DNA of 38,021 nucleotides, taken from positions 1 through 38,021 of the IMG/VR virus record IMGVR_UViG_3300034418_006509; one strand, written 5' to 3'. Each line of letters opens with the position of its first letter. The stretch's first letter is position 1. Shown here one piece after another: positions 1 through 8,300 of the stretch. The translations under genes and the position numbers were made by a program. The notes beneath the pieces were generated by a model. It saw only the letters and a program-made list of their open reading frames with translations, was not told the origin of the DNA and made no database searches. The stretch comes from a virus.

Positions 1-44
1 TTGCCGAATACAAGTATTTCCTTTATTGTGAGAAAAACAAATGA
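1..44 (+). CDS. 3' end of an upstream gene (partial)
   Basis: Reading from base 3, the frame gives AEYKYFLYCEKNK followed by TGA at 42-44. The stop overlaps the ATG of the next gene in an ATGA junction, the same tight coupling seen at many other junctions in this window. Only 13 residues are visible, so no function can be assigned. The call rests on the junction geometry alone. Confidence 0.45.
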   Translation, partial: AEYKYFLYCEKNK

Positions 45-373
45 GTATCCCACATTTCAAATCCCAACACGATTGGGAAGCATTTACCCAAATCTTTGAC
101 AATCAGTGGCATTGTAAGAGAGCACTGTTGAATCGTGTTAAAGATGATCTTTTCCCTGGTTACAACTGGGATCAACTTCAACCACAAACACTGGAAGTGA
201 TCAATGACATGGTACAAAATCTGCTGTATGATGTAGATCGTCAGTTCAAAGAAACACACCAGGACTACAAAACTGATGATGATGAGATGTTCATTCCGTA
301 TCGTTCATTCAAAGAGAATGTACTAGAAGCATTGAATGAAGCGATTGACAAACGGGGTCCGACTGATGACTGA
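41..373 (+). CDS. conserved-looking phage hypothetical protein, 110 aa
   Basis: I do not recognise this protein. It is a soluble, acidic, mostly helical-looking sequence with several aromatic residues (HDWEAF, GYNWDQL, FIPYRSF) and no signal peptide or membrane segment. The ATG overlaps the stop of the upstream gene (ATGA), which supports this start. The last codons overlap the start of a small ORF at 366, so it appears to belong to a compact co-transcribed run placed before the structural genes. No catalytic motif is visible, and no role can be inferred beyond membership of this phage operon. Confidence 0.75.
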   Translation: MSIPHFKSQHDWEAFTQIFDNQWHCKRALLNRVKDDLFPGYNWDQLQPQTLEVINDMVQNLLYDVDRQFKETHQDYKTDDDEMFIPYRSFKENVLEALNEAIDKRGPTDD

Positions 374-491
374 AGATTTCAATGAGTTGATGGATCTGGC
401 GAAAATAATTTCACACTCCTTTATGTTTGCTGTGATCTTCTCAACTGCTCCTGACACTCTCAATCATCAGATCTTGACACCTTCTAAATAA
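366..491 (+). CDS. small ORF, 41 aa, hydrophobic centre
   Basis: The ATG at 366 overlaps the end of the preceding gene by 8 bases and the frame stays open to TAA at 489-491. The product starts MTEDFNELMDLAKII and has an apolar run (SFMFAVIFSTA) at about residues 18-28, too short to be a confident membrane span. The stop codon lies inside a CTAAATA sequence, the arrangement seen where late promoters overlap stops elsewhere in the window. Function is unknown. The support is coupling and coding context only, so it may be spurious. Confidence 0.45.
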   Translation: MTEDFNELMDLAKIISHSFMFAVIFSTAPDTLNHQILTPSK

Positions 492-503
492 GTGTGTTAT
501 AAT
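474..503 (+). promoter_or_regulatory. consensus sigma70-type promoter with extended -10
   Basis: TTGACA lies at 474-479 and TATAAT at 498-503, separated by 18 bases. The -10 is preceded by TGT (495-497), which makes an extended -10 element. Both hexamers match the bacterial housekeeping consensus perfectly. It would start transcription near position 510, just ahead of the HNH endonuclease ATG at 526. This is the type of promoter expected for early transcription by host polymerase, unlike the TATAAATA-type late promoters of the structural genes. Confidence 0.75.
483..490 (+). promoter_or_regulatory. possible late promoter TCTAAATA
   Basis: TCTAAATA resembles the T4-type late -10 element and overlaps the stop codon of the small ORF ending at 491. 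It lies 35 bases before the HNH endonuclease start, somewhat farther than the other late promoters here. It falls within the spacer of the sigma70-like promoter, so it may be a chance match. Confidence 0.35.
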
Positions 504-525
504 CATTGTGTTAGTGACCGTCTGA

Positions 526-1011
526 ATGGATTTACTTGATAAGTTCAATGCCGGATTACCAGATCGTCTTCACGAAGATGAATGCTGGGAGTGGCAAGGC
601 AACAAAGACAAACAAGGTTATGGGAGAATATCTCATAACTACAAAAAGGTAAAGGTTCACAGATTAGCATATGAAGTTCATTATGCTGAACCTCTTGGAG
701 ATCTTCTTTGTTGTCATAAGTGTGATAATCCTTCCTGTGTCAATCCTAATCATCTTTATGCTGGCACCAATGCCGACAACATGAGAGATAAGGTTGAGAG
801 AGGAAGACAACATCGACCTGTTGTTGATTATAGGGGAGATAAGTCTCCAAGATCTATCCTTAAGGAACATCAAGTAAGAGACATCCGTAACCTTTATAAA
901 TTGGGTTATACTATTAGGAAACTATCAGGGTTATATCCAGCCGTCAAAGAAGCGGCAATTGCAAATATAGTTCATAACAGAACATGGAAACATTTATTGG
1001 AGCGTGAATGA
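526..1011 (+). CDS. HNH homing endonuclease (free-standing)
   Basis: The 161-residue product has the HNH_3-like arrangement. A conserved segment VHRLAYEVHY (about residues 44-53) is followed by CCHKCDNPSCVNPNHL (about 62-77), with His64 and Cys66/Cys71 as likely catalytic or zinc-binding positions, then NADNMRDKVERGR, typical of the family. The C-terminal third (from about 105, beginning SILKEHQVRDIRNLYKLGY) looks like the small helix-turn-helix often attached to phage HNH enzymes. Such enzymes nick or cut DNA at a target site and spread their own gene. No clear Shine-Dalgarno sequence precedes the ATG. A perfect sigma70-type promoter lies directly upstream, suggesting expression independent of the late programme. 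The stop overlaps the next gene's ATG. Confidence 0.88.
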   Translation: MDLLDKFNAGLPDRLHEDECWEWQGNKDKQGYGRISHNYKKVKVHRLAYEVHYAEPLGDLLCCHKCDNPSCVNPNHLYAGTNADNMRDKVERGRQHRPVVDYRGDKSPRSILKEHQVRDIRNLYKLGYTIRKLSGLYPAVKEAAIANIVHNRTWKHLLERE

Positions 1012-1820
1012 TGGCCAAGGGTTTCACAGTAAAGGCATCAAAACCAAAAACATCAGCACCACAACCAACGTGGGATTATGATGCAATCAAGAAAAGATGG
1101 CGCGGCAAGACAATCGTTTTTTGCTTACCTGGCAGAGGTTGTTCTTATCTCTTTTTGAAGAACTTTGTTCAACTTGCGTTTGACTTGGTTCAGAACAACA
1201 TGGCGATCCAAATTAGTCAGGATTATTCTTCAATGGTTAATTTTGCTCGATGCAAATGTCTTGGAGCAAATGTGTTGAGAGGTCCTGATCAGATCCCATG
1301 GGATGGTAAGTTACGTTACGATTATCAGTTGTGGATCGATAATGACATTATCTTTAACACAGAGAAGTTCTGGCAACTTGCTGATCTTGCTCTTCCTGCT
1401 GATGCCGTCGATGAAGATGGGGAGTTGATTGAAGGTAAAGATCACCCAATCTCTGCTGGTTGGTATTCCACTGAAGATGGAAAGACCACTTCTGTTGCAC
1501 ACTGGTTGGAAGAAGATGACTTCCGTAATAATGGTGGTGTGATGAATCATGAGATGGTTGATGGCATTACCAAACGTAAAAAGCCCTTCACTGTTGATTA
1601 CACTGGATTCGGTTGGGTGATGGTTCGTAAGGGTGTGTTTGAAGATCCTGAAATGAAGTATCCTTGGTTTGCACCAAAGATGCAAGTGTTTGAATCTGGA
1701 GCGGTTCAAGATATGTGTGGAGAGGATGTATCCTTCTGTTTGGATGCAATTGATGCTGGATTTGAAATCTGGTGTGATCCACGCATTCGTGTTGGACATG
1801 AGAAAACAAGAATCATCTAA
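1008..1820 (+). CDS. glycosyltransferase-like protein
   Basis: This 270-residue soluble protein has features of a GT-A-fold glycosyltransferase. The N-terminal strand KTIVFCLPGRGCSYLFLKNF is followed by a helix-rich segment and then YQLWIDNDIIF (about residues 108-118), whose DND fits the metal-binding DxD motif. Further on are GFGWVMVRKGVF and GEDVSFCLDAIDAGFEIWCDP, which resemble the distal acidic motif of family-2-like enzymes, then a terminal VGHEKTRII. It may modify a sugar on DNA or a virion protein, but donor and acceptor are unknown. The annotated ATG (1008) overlaps the HNH stop. A second ATG at 1011 (MAKGFTVK) is equally plausible. The family assignment is from motifs only. Confidence 0.65.
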   Translation: MMAKGFTVKASKPKTSAPQPTWDYDAIKKRWRGKTIVFCLPGRGCSYLFLKNFVQLAFDLVQNNMAIQISQDYSSMVNFARCKCLGANVLRGPDQIPWDGKLRYDYQLWIDNDIIFNTEKFWQLADLALPADAVDEDGELIEGKDHPISAGWYSTEDGKTTSVAHWLEEDDFRNNGGVMNHEMVDGITKRKKPFTVDYTGFGWVMVRKGVFEDPEMKYPWFAPKMQVFESGAVQDMCGEDVSFCLDAIDAGFEIWCDPRIRVGHEKTRII

Positions 1821-1828
1821 TTTTCATT

Positions 1829-1966
1829 ATGTCAAGTTCAAGAAAATCGACTGAGGCAAGAACTCGTCAAGAGAGTTATAATGAGAAGAGAAAGGAGATC
1901 AGACATCTGTATCTCCTTGCCAAACAAACAAAACAACTACAAAATGAGGCAAACGAATGGCAATGA
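1829..1966 (+). CDS. small basic/coiled protein, 45 aa
   Basis: This short ORF opens 8 bases after the glycosyltransferase stop (ATG 1829, TGA 1964-1966). The product begins MSSSRKSTEARTRQESYNEK and ends KQLQNEANEWQ. It is rich in Lys, Arg, Gln and Glu and should be almost entirely helical. It overlaps the next ORF (ATG 1957) by 10 bases, an arrangement repeated throughout this compact cluster. Function unknown. Confidence 0.55.
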   Translation: MSSSRKSTEARTRQESYNEKRKEIRHLYLLAKQTKQLQNEANEWQ

Positions 1967-2109
1967 CTTGGAGTATTGCTAAACTCCATCTTCATAAAGA
2001 CGGTCACCAAATGGGTGATCGTCAGAAACGCACTTCCATTGGTAATGGTAAAAGAAAGCGTGGTGGATACAAATCACGCAAAAAGTATAGAGGACAAGGT
2101 AAACGATGA
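1957..2109 (+). CDS. small strongly basic protein, 50 aa
   Basis: The ORF runs from ATG 1957 to TGA 2107-2109. The product starts MAMTWSIAKLHLHKDGHQMG and its second half is dense in Lys, Arg and Gly (GKRKRGGYKSRKKYRGQGKR), like nucleic-acid-binding tails. It overlaps both neighbours: the upstream stop lies inside it and its own stop forms ATGA with the gene at 2106. The charge pattern suggests RNA or DNA binding, but that is inference and the family is not recognised. Confidence 0.6.
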   Translation: MAMTWSIAKLHLHKDGHQMGDRQKRTSIGNGKRKRGGYKSRKKYRGQGKR

Positions 2110-2699
2110 ATTTTGAGGACGAGTGGCATAAAACACATCCTTTGGATCACTGGGTTTATGATAAACTTCTCCTCTCCAATGCATTAGGTTATACTTGCGG
2201 ACCAGTGGGAATTGATGTTCCCACACCTGGTCAATATATTATTCGACCCGTTCACAACTATATGGGAATGGGTCGTTTTTCACGCATTGCTTCACTAACA
2301 AGAAGCACTGATCATTTGCATCCAGGAGAGTTTTGGTGTGAAGTTTTTAAAGGTCCACACTTTACAGTTGACTTTCATAATGGAGTTGCTGAACTTGTTG
2401 TAAAAGGAGTTAGAAAAGAAGGAGATCCACTGTGGAAGTGGTCTCGATGGACTCGGGTAAATAAGAAGTTCAAACTTCCTAAGATCCTACAAGATCTTCA
2501 TGGTAAATATGAATGGATCAACTGTGAATTCATTGGAGATCGACTTATCGAAGTTCATTTTCGTAAGAATCCTGATTTTAGGTTTGGTAATAAGATTGCC
2601 ATTCCTGTTTGGGATGGAAGTGAAATCAAAAATAAGAAATCACAGTTTCATTTTGTAGAAGATAAAGATTATCACAGAAGGGGGTTTTATATCAAATGA
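2106..2699 (+). CDS. hypothetical protein, possibly ATP-grasp-like
   Basis: This 197-residue protein is not firmly recognised. The pattern PTPGQYIIRPVHNYMGMGR (about residues 39-57), then FWCEVFKGPHFTVDF, and finally CEFIGDRLIEVHFRKNPDF (about 139-157) is reminiscent of ATP-grasp folds, where a nucleotide-binding Lys/Arg strand, an acidic strand and an E...R/N.NP segment line the active site. The canonical residues cannot all be placed, so a structural rather than enzymatic role is possible. The start overlaps the preceding stop (ATGA) and its stop overlaps the next ATG. It is not gp53, to which its length is similar but its sequence is not. Confidence 0.7.
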   Translation: MNFEDEWHKTHPLDHWVYDKLLLSNALGYTCGPVGIDVPTPGQYIIRPVHNYMGMGRFSRIASLTRSTDHLHPGEFWCEVFKGPHFTVDFHNGVAELVVKGVRKEGDPLWKWSRWTRVNKKFKLPKILQDLHGKYEWINCEFIGDRLIEVHFRKNPDFRFGNKIAIPVWDGSEIKNKKSQFHFVEDKDYHRRGFYIK

Positions 2700-2860
2700 A
2701 TAGCCAAAGTCAAATGAGTGAGGAATTCCTCAGAGAAATCAATGAGGATGATCTCAATCCCAAGTCAAAGAAGAAGAGACCTGCTGATGGTCTCTTTGAA
2801 AGAACTGAATGTGAATGCGACACGTGTGAATGTGACAGGCAAACCCTCCAAGAAGGTTGA
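2696..2860 (+). CDS. small acidic protein with a four-cysteine cluster, 54 aa
   Basis: The ORF runs from ATG 2696, overlapping the preceding stop, to TGA 2858-2860. The product begins MNSQSQMSEEFLREINEDDL, has a basic patch PKSKKKRP, and then ECECDTCECD (about residues 38-47), where four Cys alternate with acidic residues in a CxCxxCxC spacing that could bind a metal ion. Its stop abuts the late promoter of gp25. Function unknown. Confidence 0.6.
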   Translation: MNSQSQMSEEFLREINEDDLNPKSKKKRPADGLFERTECECDTCECDRQTLQEG

Positions 2861-2866
2861 TAAATA
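2859..2866 (+). promoter_or_regulatory. late promoter (GATAAATA) for gp25-gp6-gp7
   Basis: GATAAATA matches the T4-type late promoter -10 element (TATAAATA) in seven of eight positions. It sits 25 bases before the gp25 start and overlaps the stop of the preceding small gene. The next real gap is after the giant gene at 17476, so this promoter could drive about 14.6 kb of wedge genes. Confidence 0.7.
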
Positions 2867-2891
2867 ACCACAGTAAGTTGTAACTGTAACT

Positions 2892-3293
2892 GTGCCGATT
2901 GAAAGGGTCAGTCAAGGATTTAAGGACATTAGTGCGTCTTTTCAAATCAATCCAATTAATGATGATCTCATTGCAATTAAGAATGAGGTCTCAATTGCAC
3001 GTGCAATTAGGAATTTAATCTTTACAGTTCCAGGAGATAAACCATTCCAACCAGAAGTTGGTTCGAATGTTGATAACTTACTATTTGACAACATGGATGA
3101 GCTGACTGCGGCATCCATTCGATCAGAGATTGAATACACAATTAATAACTTCGAACCCAGAGTTGAGTTGAATGAGGTTATCGTTGAACCTAACTATGAT
3201 GATAATGAGTTTAACGTGACAATTAAGTATTACATTGTTGGTATTGATGTTCCCCAACAGGAACTTGCTTTCGCACTTCAGCTCACCAGGTAA
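2892..3293 (+). CDS. 25: baseplate wedge protein gp25
   Basis: At 133 residues this is the size of T4 gp25 (132). It has the GPW/gp25 fold signature: a helical N-terminus with VSIARAIRNLIFTVPGDKPF (about residues 33-52), a segment VGSNVDNLLFDNMDE, then NNFEPRVELNEV (about 85-96) containing the near-invariant EPR motif, and a C-terminal beta strand pair. gp25 sits in the centre of the wedge next to the hub and helps trigger sheath polymerisation and contraction. The start is GTG (CTGTGCCGATT); no ATG is available that keeps the conserved N-terminus. The stop directly abuts the ATG of gp6. Only a weak ribosome-binding site is visible. Confidence 0.93.
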   Translation: MPIERVSQGFKDISASFQINPINDDLIAIKNEVSIARAIRNLIFTVPGDKPFQPEVGSNVDNLLFDNMDELTAASIRSEIEYTINNFEPRVELNEVIVEPNYDDNEFNVTIKYYIVGIDVPQQELAFALQLTR

Positions 3294-5333
3294 ATGGCAT
3301 TAGTTAATTTTAGTAACGTCGATTTCGATCAGATAAAACAATCCATTAAGGATTATCTGAAAGCGAACTCAAACTTCACTGATTACGACTTTGAAGGATC
3401 TAATCTTTCAACGATTATTGACGTTCTTGCTTATAACACCTACATTAACTCATACAACGCCAACATGGTGACGAATGAGGTTTTCATTGACAGTGCAACT
3501 CTTCGTAATAATGTAGTTTCGTTAGCAAGAAACGTTGGTTATGTTCCCACATCCCGTAAGGCATCAAAGGCGACCATTTCGTTTATTGTGGACATGCAGA
3601 ATGTGTCCGCATCAACTCTTACGTTGAAATCTGGTTTAGTCGCCATTAGTGCAAACAGAGCACTCAATCAAAATCTTACCTTCTGTATTCCAAGTGATGT
3701 TACGGTTCAGGTGGATTCCACAGGAACTGCTAACTTCGAGAACCTGGAAATTTACGAAGGTTCATTCATTCAACAAAACTACACTTACTCTTCTCGTAAT
3801 CCAAATCAGAAATATCTTCTTCCGAATGCTGGAGTTGACACAGACTTAGTTTCTGTGGTGGTAAAAGAATCAGAACAATCCACTGTTTCGAGAAAGTTTA
3901 GACGTTCTGACAGTCTTTTGGGTGTGGATGGAACTTCTCCTGTTTATTATCTCTCTGAAATTGATGGAGAAAGATATGAAGTTTACTTTGGTGATGGTAA
4001 TTTTGGACTTCCTCTTCAGGATCCAAATTATATTCAGATCTCTTACATCACATCGAGTGGAGCATCTGGCAACGGAGTGACTCGTTTTTCTTATGCTGGA
4101 AGTTTAGTGGATAATAATGGTAACTCAGTTACCGCTGGTGTTTCTAACATTACTACGATTTCACCTTCTGGTGGTGGATCAGATATTGAAAGTGTGGAAT
4201 CAGTTAGAAAATATGCTCCACAGATTTATTCATCACAAAACAGAGCAGTTACCTCTGCTGATTATGAAGCAATTATTCCTCAGATTTACCCTGAAGCGGA
4301 ATCTGTTTCTGCTTTTGGGGGCGAAGATCTTTCTCCTCCTGCTTATGGCAAGGTTTTTGTGAGCATCAAACCTTACAATGGAATCTTCTTATCCTCTGGA
4401 GTGAAGGAAAACATTCAAAATCAGATAAGAAAGTACAGTGTTGCTGGAATTGTTGTTGAAATTGTTGATCTGAAGTATCTTTATGTAGAGACAAACTCCA
4501 CTGTTTATTACAACACTAACCTCGCAACCTCCCCACAACAACTCAGCACAGTTATTCAGGGTAATTTGGGTGTTTATGCTAACTCAACTGAACTGAATAA
4601 GTTTGGTGCAAGGTTTAAGTACTCCAAATTCCAAGGTGTGATTGATAACAGTAACGATTCAATTACGTCTAACATTACAACTGTGAATATGAGACGGGAT
4701 ATGGTCCCTGTGATTAACGCATTTGCGGAGTATGAAATCTGTTATGGTAACAGATTCCACATTAAGAATCACGGACATTCACCAGTTGCTGATGGAACTG
4801 TCATTGGATACAACATTAAGTCCTCTGGTTTCACCATTAGTGGTGTGAATGGAACAGTTTATCTCGGTGACACACCAAATCCAGATCAGAAAACTGGAAC
4901 ATTATTCTTCTTTAGGCTTCAATCTCCCACTGAACCAGTAATTGTGAAATCAAATGTGGGACTTATTGATTACATCAAGGGTGAGGTTCGTTTAAATCCT
5001 GTTAATATTCTTAGCACACAAGTGAATAGAGGTGTTCCTCTGATTGAAATTTCAGCAACTCCATACTCAAATGATGTTATTGGCCTTCAAGACCTTTACC
5101 TTCAATTAGACACCTCAAATGTCGTGGTAAATATGTTACAGGATAACATCGCTTCTGGTAGTGATACCTCGGGAGTAAATTATCCAGTAACGACGAGTTA
5201 CTCCAATGGAGGTCTCGTTAGAGGTACTCCAGTTATCAATACCTCAATAACTGGAACAGTTCAAACAACTGGAACCACATCGGCTTCAGTTGTGACGACA
5301 CAGAGTGGTTCCAGTTACCAAGCTACTTACTAA
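3294..5333 (+). CDS. 6: baseplate wedge protein gp6
   Basis: The 679-residue product is close to T4 gp6 (660). The N-terminal block with NFTDYDFEGSNLSTIIDVLAYNT (about residues 27-49), then LRNNVVSLARNVGYVPTSRKASKA, parallels the T4 gp6 region that reads DYDFEGS, LLAYNT and GYLPTS. The middle SAFGGEDLSPPAYGKVFVSIKP is typical of the gp6/baseplate-J-like wall. gp6 dimers form the continuous inner ring of the baseplate, joining adjacent wedges. The C-terminus ends in a Ser/Thr-rich tail (TTGTTSASVVTTQSGSS). It follows gp25 with zero spacing and is followed after 5 bases by the gp7-like giant, the T4 order 25/6/7. Confidence 0.93.
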   Translation: MALVNFSNVDFDQIKQSIKDYLKANSNFTDYDFEGSNLSTIIDVLAYNTYINSYNANMVTNEVFIDSATLRNNVVSLARNVGYVPTSRKASKATISFIVDMQNVSASTLTLKSGLVAISANRALNQNLTFCIPSDVTVQVDSTGTANFENLEIYEGSFIQQNYTYSSRNPNQKYLLPNAGVDTDLVSVVVKESEQSTVSRKFRRSDSLLGVDGTSPVYYLSEIDGERYEVYFGDGNFGLPLQDPNYIQISYITSSGASGNGVTRFSYAGSLVDNNGNSVTAGVSNITTISPSGGGSDIESVESVRKYAPQIYSSQNRAVTSADYEAIIPQIYPEAESVSAFGGEDLSPPAYGKVFVSIKPYNGIFLSSGVKENIQNQIRKYSVAGIVVEIVDLKYLYVETNSTVYYNTNLATSPQQLSTVIQGNLGVYANSTELNKFGARFKYSKFQGVIDNSNDSITSNITTVNMRRDMVPVINAFAEYEICYGNRFHIKNHGHSPVADGTVIGYNIKSSGFTISGVNGTVYLGDTPNPDQKTGTLFFFRLQSPTEPVIVKSNVGLIDYIKGEVRLNPVNILSTQVNRGVPLIEISATPYSNDVIGLQDLYLQLDTSNVVVNMLQDNIASGSDTSGVNYPVTTSYSNGGLVRGTPVINTSITGTVQTTGTTSASVVTTQSGSSYQATY

Positions 5334-5338
5334 GATAG

Positions 5339-8300
5339 ATGACAGTAGATAGAGTTAGATTTCAGGACATTGTAGAGAGTCAACTCCCTCGTTATGTGAG
5401 GGAAGATTTTCCACTGCTACCAGAATTCCTCAAGCAATATTACATTTCACAAGAAATTCAGAGTGGAACTCTGGATTTGGTTCAAAATTTAGATCAATAT
5501 GTCAATTTGAGCGAGATTTTTGACCTTTCTAACTCAACAACTCTTGGTGCTGATCTTTCTTTCACTGGAAAAATCATTCAAACCTCATTTGAGGGTAATT
5601 TTACAGTCGGATTTCCCGATAAAAATGGTCTAATTCAGATTGATGATGAAATTATCTTCTATGAAACCAAAACTGACCGCAATTTTGAAGGATGCACTCG
5701 CGGTTTTAGTGGAATTACGTCATATATTTCACCTTCAACCCCAGATGAGCTCGTTTTTACGACTTCTGTAGCGACAGAACACAAAAATGGAGCCAGAATT
5801 GTCAATTTGAACGTTCTTTTCCTCCAACAATTTCTTCAAAAGCTTAAAAAACAATTTACACCTGGTTTTTCTGGTCGTTCTTTAACAAATAACCTCGATC
5901 AGAAGAACTTTTTGTATGGTGCAGAGTCATTTTACTCCGCAAAAGGAACAGATGCCGCCACAGAAGTGCTTTTTCGAGCACTTTATGGTGAAGATGTTGA
6001 AATTATTCACCCAAGTCGTTTTCTGTTTAGACCTTCTGATGCAGATTACAAGATTACTGAGGATTTCATCGTTGAAGCGATTGATGGAGATCCGTTAGAA
6101 CTAAAAAACCTCACATTGTTCCAACTTGAAAGTGGAGCAAATGGTTCTGTTACAAATGTTGAAAGAATTAATTACGATAAAGGTCAATATTACCAAATTA
6201 GTGTCGATAGTGGTTATGACAGAGACATTAATGTCAGAGGAACCATTTATGCTGATTTTCAGGTTAATCCAAAGACAAAATTACTGAATTCCGTAAGTTA
6301 TGGATCCACAATTCTCGATGTTGATTCAACATTGGGTTTTGATGACTCTGGAGAACTTGTCACAACTGATATTGATGGAAATGACGTTATTTTAACTTAT
6401 TCTGGAAAGAATATTAACCAATTCTTCAATGTTGAAGGTGTAACTTATGAAATTGATGTCAAAACTGACATTCGAAAGAACGATTACTCTTATGCTTATG
6501 TTGGAATTGGCACAGAAGAACAAATTCGAGTTAGAATTGCTGGTGCTCTGAAAGATCTCGAAATCAACGAGAAAACTTACTCATATAACGAAAGAGACCT
6601 CATTAACATTAAGTCTCTGGGTCGAATTTCGAAGAATCAGAGGTCCACTGGGTGGATTACTAACGTTAAAACCTCAATGGATGTTGAGAACGTTATTCCC
6701 GATGACATCGATGAGAGAATTTACAGCATCTTTACTTTTGACACCCATTATTATTATCCCGGTTACAGAATTGTTCTAACTGATGCCTTTGGGACAAAAA
6801 CAAACGGAAAGATTTCAAGAGTCATCTCTAAACGAGGATTTGTTGTTAAATTTGAAAATGCTCTGAATTTGGCAGCTCCCACTTATGTTGTGGAGAACCA
6901 ATTACTCAAAGGAGACTCGGACAACTTTCAGGAGATCACAGAATTCACAGCAAACGTTCAGAACACCTATTCTGACCCCTCAGACAACGTTCTGGTGGTT
7001 TCTAACACCATTCCAAACTACTTCGACACTAAGACTAACCCCTATAACAAAACAATTGTTTTCAGTGGATCTGCAGATGGTGAAAACATCAGATTAACCA
7101 ATAACACTGATCACGGATTCTACACTGGTGATGCAGTTTTCTACAGTCCTGGAATTACCAATGAGGTGACAAGTTCTCCTGATGGAATTGAAGTTGTAAC
7201 TCAAAACATCAGTAAATTCACTAATGTTGAATCTCTTGTTTATTATGTCAAGAGAGTTGATCAGGAAACAATCAAACTTGCCAGATCTCGTTCTGACATC
7301 TTTGCTAATAAGTTCATTTCTCCTCTGGGAGATGTAACAAACAACGTCTTCACTTACTACGATTACTACAATAAGAAACTTCTCCCACAATCCATTATCA
7401 GACAGATTACTGATCCTGTTAATCGATCCGATGAATATGAGACTGTTGCTGGAGATTACAATGGCATTCTGGTAAATGGTGTTGAGATTCTGAACTATAA
7501 GTCTCAGGATAAACTGTTCTCTGGAAGAATTGAATCCATTAAGGTTGGAAGTGGTGGTGAGGACTATGATGTTGTCAATCCTCCTGAATTTCACATTGAT
7601 GATAATGTTCAGACTGGAATTGCTGCAACTGGTGTTGTGGCAGTTAGAGGAAGTCTTCAGAAGATTAACATTATTGATCCAGGATTTGATTACATTGGAA
7701 CTCCCACTGTTCGCATCACTGGTGGTAATGGAACTGGTGCGGCTGCAGAAGTTAATCTCACAACAGCTTATAATGTACCACAATTCAACTCTGAGGTTGA
7801 TGGCAGTGTTACTGGTGGCATAAGCACAACTAATAACACAATTGGTTTCTCTACCTATCACAGGTTCAGAGATTATGAGAGGGTTGTTTATGATTCCAAG
7901 AAACTTCAGAATGTTGGTGGTCTCTCCACTGGAAGTTTCTATTATGTTTCTCTTGTAGATGCATCAACTGTCAAACTTCATAAGTCTTATGATGATGCCA
8001 ATTTGGGCATCAACACCATTTCTCTCACTGGTTATGGTAAAGGGATTCAGTCCATTAATTCCACTGGTCTGAAGTATATTCTTTCTGATGTTGTTGTTAC
8101 AAATCCAGGACAAAATTATCAGAATAAAAAGAGAAGAATCACTGGAATTAACACAGCATCCAACACAATCACCATCAAGAGCCATGGTTACTTGAATGGT
8201 GAAATTATTGAGTATGAATCCATTGATGATGATGTTCTGGGACTCTCCACAACAGAAGATTACTTTGTCACCAAGGTTGATAATGATAACTTTAAGTTAT

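Follow-up and report, generated by a model that had tools for sequence, protein, structure and literature searches.

Introduction

Seven free-standing endonuclease genes of bacteriophage T4 lack promoters of their own and rely on those located upstream, and no endonuclease-specific promoter is early (PMC2988022). The T4-like cyanophage S-PM2 carries the free-standing endonuclease gene F-CphI, which adjoins psbA (PMC6083498). According to PMC2984593, it is unclear how middle genes are controlled in cyanophages; the same article cites proposals of overlapping early and late promoters for RB49, S-PM2 and Syn9.

Here we analysed a locus in a 38-kb virus record (38,021 nt; the whole stretch is referred to as the window), where an HNH endonuclease gene lies between a sigma70-type promoter and a glycosyltransferase-like (GT) gene. 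Like the T4 free-standing endonuclease genes, the HNH gene is located between conserved phage genes in the same orientation, has a resident promoter upstream and is flanked by conversion tracts. Unlike in T4, where no early promoter is used according to PMC2988022, the promoter already in place is of the host type, and GT is parted from its own promoter by an insertion at the 5' UTR. F-CphI of a T4-like cyanophage, too, is a free-standing homing endonuclease gene adjoining the gene it probably targets, and a TTGACT-18-TATAAT-like site is found upstream of it, but F-CphI represents the Endo VII-type motif class at another locus, whereas the window nuclease is of the HNH_3 type. As in the proposals for RB49, S-PM2 and Syn9, a single gene is preceded by both a promoter of the host type and a late-type box; in the window, however, this box is placed inside the spacer of 17-18 nt in a near-fixed register, an arrangement found at practically one gene only. 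We propose, with a probability of roughly 0.85, that the conserved sigma70-type promoter at this site is resident and belongs to the GT gene, and that a free-standing HNH gene homed between this promoter and GT.

Results

An exact sigma70-type promoter precedes the HNH gene

The window encodes the T4-like baseplate proteins gp25 and gp6, and its first 3 kb match Synechococcus phages only. A 110-aa open reading frame (ORF; 41-373, phrog_10289) is followed by a 41-aa ORF, the HNH gene, the GT-like gene, small ORFs, gp25 and gp6. A location shortly upstream of gp25 is also seen for the GT-like gene of S-SM2 and S-B43, and in T4-like cyanophages the gene is a neighbour of the baseplate cluster. 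The phrog_10289 ORF, which adjoins GT in the window, is found near gp46/gp47 in S-RIM8, indicating that this segment has moved between genome regions. The 41-aa ORF gave no match in PHROG and Pfam searches, nor did an Rfam search of positions 1-6000 of the window.

The name of the GT-like gene reflects weak similarity. Some cyanophage records call it a glycosyltransferase, phrog_1574 is annotated as being of unknown function, and the match to a glycosyltransferase PHROG reaches only E 0.0017. The structure model is of low confidence (pLDDT 60.6) and yields weak matches to GT-A-like folds (GpgS/Mnn9), and a sequence search of the PDB with GT returned no match.

Table 1. Positions of the promoter elements, genes and sequence patches discussed, numbered from the first nucleotide of the window.
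Feature	Position	Strand	Remarks
41-aa ORF (MTEDF...LTPSK*)	366-491	+	its 3' end runs across the -35 hexamer and CTAAATA box
-35 hexamer TTGACA	474-479	+	identical in HNH-minus L002; recipient-derived side of the junction
Spacer, 18 nt	480-497		between -35 and -10
CTAAATA spacer box (TANATA class)	484-490	+	late-promoter-like; conserved in GT promoters
Extended -10, TGT-TATAAT	495-503	+	TG 495-496, TATAAT 498-503; L002 has GCGT-TAGAAT
HNH endonuclease gene, 161 aa	526-1011	+	between GT promoter and GT
GGAGCGTGA	999-1007	+	present in the HNH-minus allele too; probable ribosome-binding site of GT, here doubling as the 3' end of the HNH ORF
GT-like gene (phrog_1574; T4-GC102 in S-SM2)	1011-1820	+	original client of the promoter
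115-nt GT patch	1205-1319	+	34 mismatches to L002, one amino-acid change; identical flanks; only in HNH-plus contigs

The sequence-only reading had pointed to two exact hexamers 18 nt apart with an extended -10 in front of the HNH gene and to a late-type box nested between them, and all these elements are present at 474-503 (Table 1). With 12 of 12 hexamer positions matched, the sequence also bears out the description as a strong host-type, i.e. early-type, promoter. It ends 22 nt before the HNH ATG. An exact TTGACA-N15-19-TATAAT occurs once in the 38-kb window, compared with 0.05 expected occurrences and at least one occurrence in 4 of 100 shuffles, and the site is the sole 12/12 match within the first 20 kb.

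That the site is a chance look-alike of the consensus without function might be considered, as a simple scan of the first 20 kb showed no general excess of promoter-like sites (39 as compared to 50.5 in shuffled sequences). This explanation is hardly credible, however, since one position is conserved across relatives while the spacers are otherwise randomised, with 0.03-0.2 bits per column between the conserved elements. Moreover, the -35 hexamer, which encodes Leu-Thr in the ORF of the window, overlaps a TGA stop codon in most relatives, so that coding does not explain it. In most relatives this TGA belongs to another upstream gene, whereas the window instead has the 41-aa ORF ending inside the promoter.

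The promoter is present in relatives lacking the HNH gene

We assembled a set of 80 GT relatives, 78 of which had enough upstream sequence, and read the DNA before each of them. A promoter matching at least 10 of 12 positions with a spacing of 17-18 nt is located 18-36 nt before GT in 76 of the 78 loci, i.e. in 76 of the 76 HNH-less ones, these being counts of metagenomic contigs, possibly from related samples or assemblies, and not of independent events. The remaining two loci (L030 and L078) have an HNH gene in the interval before GT. Of 110-mers drawn at random from these loci, only about 6% score as high. The most direct comparison is provided by L002, a near-isogenic HNH-minus contig whose GT protein is 99.6-100% identical to that of the window by segment and whose upstream 500 nt are identical to those of the HNH-plus contig L082. 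L002 carries TTGACACCTCCCTAAATAAGGCGTTAGAAT, that is TTGACA-18-TAGAAT, directly ahead of GT.

The promoter thus exists independently of the HNH gene, and on account of these relatives we reject an HNH-specific promoter. The sequence-only reading had taken the promoter for a device of the selfish gene and had named its presence in phages without HNH as the observation that would speak against this; exactly that was found in the 76 HNH-less loci, including L002. Read-through from HNH into GT, which had also been suggested, is likely, as the HNH stop and the GT start overlap or abut at 1008-1011. GT, however, is the original client of the promoter and would not owe any early expression to read-through.

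The HNH family is tied to the promoter-GT interval

The HNH ORF contains a Pfam HNH_3 domain (PF13392, residues 43-87, E 2.9e-6) and a separate C-terminal part which matches phrog_20467; we predict that the protein is an active nuclease that cuts DNA. No clear Shine-Dalgarno sequence is located ahead of its ATG, so that the yield of HNH may be low. Folding of the RNA of the HNH 5' region revealed nothing unusual (z -0.89).

A profile built from three HNH sequences retrieved 47 loci. The HNH genes of the 32 closest ones are all located 3-19 nt before a GT gene, whereas the distant loci have no GT nearby; the best relatives of the window HNH that were listed included no isolate cyanophage. The GT promoter is found 22-53 nt upstream of HNH in 20 of the 32 closest loci and 123 nt upstream, beyond a short gene fragment, in L225, L227 and L229. 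In the L216/L219/L220/L222 and L234/L244 groups HNH directly follows the upstream gene and no GT promoter was seen. The HNH family is thus tied to the interval between promoter and GT, but the promoter is not tied to HNH, and the notion that the promoter travels with the endonuclease is not supported, as some phages with an HNH of the same family are devoid of it. In L030, L216, L219, L222, L234 and L244 the HNH gene lies right behind the stop codon of the upstream gene and the GT promoter is missing; GT must be transcribed from elsewhere in these phages.

A promoter dedicated to HNH and travelling with it would fit the location of the site 22 nt before the HNH ATG, and an HNH-linked tract does include both the spacer box and the -10 half (see below). 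We nevertheless regard this explanation as very improbable: the promoter precedes GT directly in all 76 HNH-less relatives, it is missing upstream of HNH in the L216/L219/L220/L222 and L234/L244 groups, and the promoter of L236-L241 is the same as that of the HNH-minus contig L065.

The insert and short adjoining tracts distinguish HNH-plus from HNH-minus alleles

Apart from tracts beside the insert, the HNH-plus contigs (window, L082 and L083) do not differ from L002 for more than 3.4 kb downstream of it and for 200 nt or more upstream. Sequence specific for the HNH-plus allele extends from ~483 to ~998. Its left edge falls inside the promoter spacer, so that the -35 hexamer is that of the recipient and the -10 half came with HNH. 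Within GT the window differs from L002 by six mismatches at nt 36-105, none at 106-193 and 34 in the 115 nt at 1205-1319 of the window, with none thereafter; per 100 nt of GT this corresponds to 5, 3, 27 and 5 mismatches, followed by zero for 3.4 kb. A second pair shows the same presence and absence of HNH along with a flanking tract: L236-L240 differ from L065 by six HNH-linked SNPs, all within the initial 53 nt of GT, and the promoter is the same and unchanged in L236/L237/L238/L240 and L065. The insert and its short flanking tracts look like the footprint of homing, with conversion tracts beside the homing gene, and homing is how the HNH gene probably arrived.

The promoter of the window matches the consensus best within its pair (TAGAAT being replaced by TATAAT plus TG), owing to its HNH-linked half, and in this one case a gain in strength to the benefit of the selfish gene is conceivable.

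The patch at 1205-1319 falls in the most conserved segment of the GT family. The version in L002 resembles that of sister lineages and the version in the window does not, suggesting that the window patch is the import, and an exact 29-nt patch probe was found only in the two other HNH-plus contigs. The patch might be a target that has become resistant to the endonuclease, or a product of recombination. A general recoding of this GT target segment wherever HNH is present was also considered and rejected, as the segment shows no association with HNH status across 16 HNH-plus and 73 HNH-minus sequences, nor in the L078/L065 pair; the patch therefore stays a local observation.

The spacer of the GT promoter contains a conserved TANATA box

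The window contains ten [AC]TAAATA boxes, all on the + strand, nine of which are located 16-35 nt before an ORF start, in line with the earlier statement that the structural genes use TATAAATA-type boxes. The box within the promoter ends 35 nt before the HNH ATG. TANATA is present in the spacers of 47 of 50 non-redundant GT promoters, as opposed to 2.9 in shuffled spacers (maximum 11) and to 7 of 167 other sigma70-like sites, two of these seven being the GT promoters of S-SM2 and S-B43. In its commonest register the box starts 5 nt after the -35 hexamer and ends 6 nt before the -10 hexamer, and its columns hold ~0.8-1.3 bits save for the variable central position, compared to 0.03-0.2 bits in the upstream part of the spacer.

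A dual early/late promoter is possible, with a sigma70 start at ~510 and a gp55-type late start at ~496 directed by CTAAATA, so that HNH and GT would be transcribed early and again late. In the same contigs [AC]TAAATA precedes gp25 in 72 of 72 cases, CTAAATA being a common form, and such a promoter would have counterparts in those proposed for RB49, S-PM2 and Syn9. We regard this as less likely than not, however, as exact [AC]TAAATA occurs in just 18 of the 47 GT spacer boxes. The others are TATATA, TACATA or TAGATA with a varying central A, forms which are not used as late box before gp25, so that relatives do not keep the late consensus as the gp25 boxes do. Moreover, nearly all matches to the composite of promoter and box are located at GT (10 of 11, in 24 records). 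Thus, a late start is possible in the window phage, and the spacer box may serve another factor.

A genome-wide class of composite promoters, or a general rule for middle genes, was rejected on the basis of the same distribution. The only match outside GT is L207:17302-17330 (S-PM2 117302-117330; TTGACATAGGATAAATACTCACTTATAAT), located ahead of S-PM2p158 in an intergenic region between divergent genes.

Discussion

Comparison with HNH-less relatives and with near-identical genomes suggests that the HNH gene settled between GT and its promoter, borrowing a switch rather than bringing its own. Host RNA polymerase would initiate at ~509-511, presumably early in infection, and produce a single transcript carrying HNH and then GT; through the spacer box, the gp55-type machinery may additionally transcribe the genes late, from a start predicted at ~496. 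GT retains its GGAG (999-1002), and the overlap between the HNH stop and the GT start would allow coupling of their translation. The placement of the insert adds a gene without severing GT from its promoter.

A more elaborate reading assigns to GT a promoter class of its own, host-type with TANATA locked in the spacer, which a factor of the phage or the host would read on a middle or two-phase schedule; a dedicated HNH family would home to the interval behind it and cut the most conserved coding segment of GT, and the patch at 1205-1319 would protect HNH-plus genomes from cleavage. We consider this combination unlikely and favour the resident GT promoter behind which a free-standing HNH gene homed.

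The locus, whose alleles with and without HNH are found in near-identical genomes, is a clear natural case of a selfish endonuclease entering an operon behind a resident promoter while the displaced gene stays unbroken. In addition, the analysis uncovers a composite promoter of cyanophages that is conserved and specific for one gene, so that early versus late use becomes testable at one defined site.
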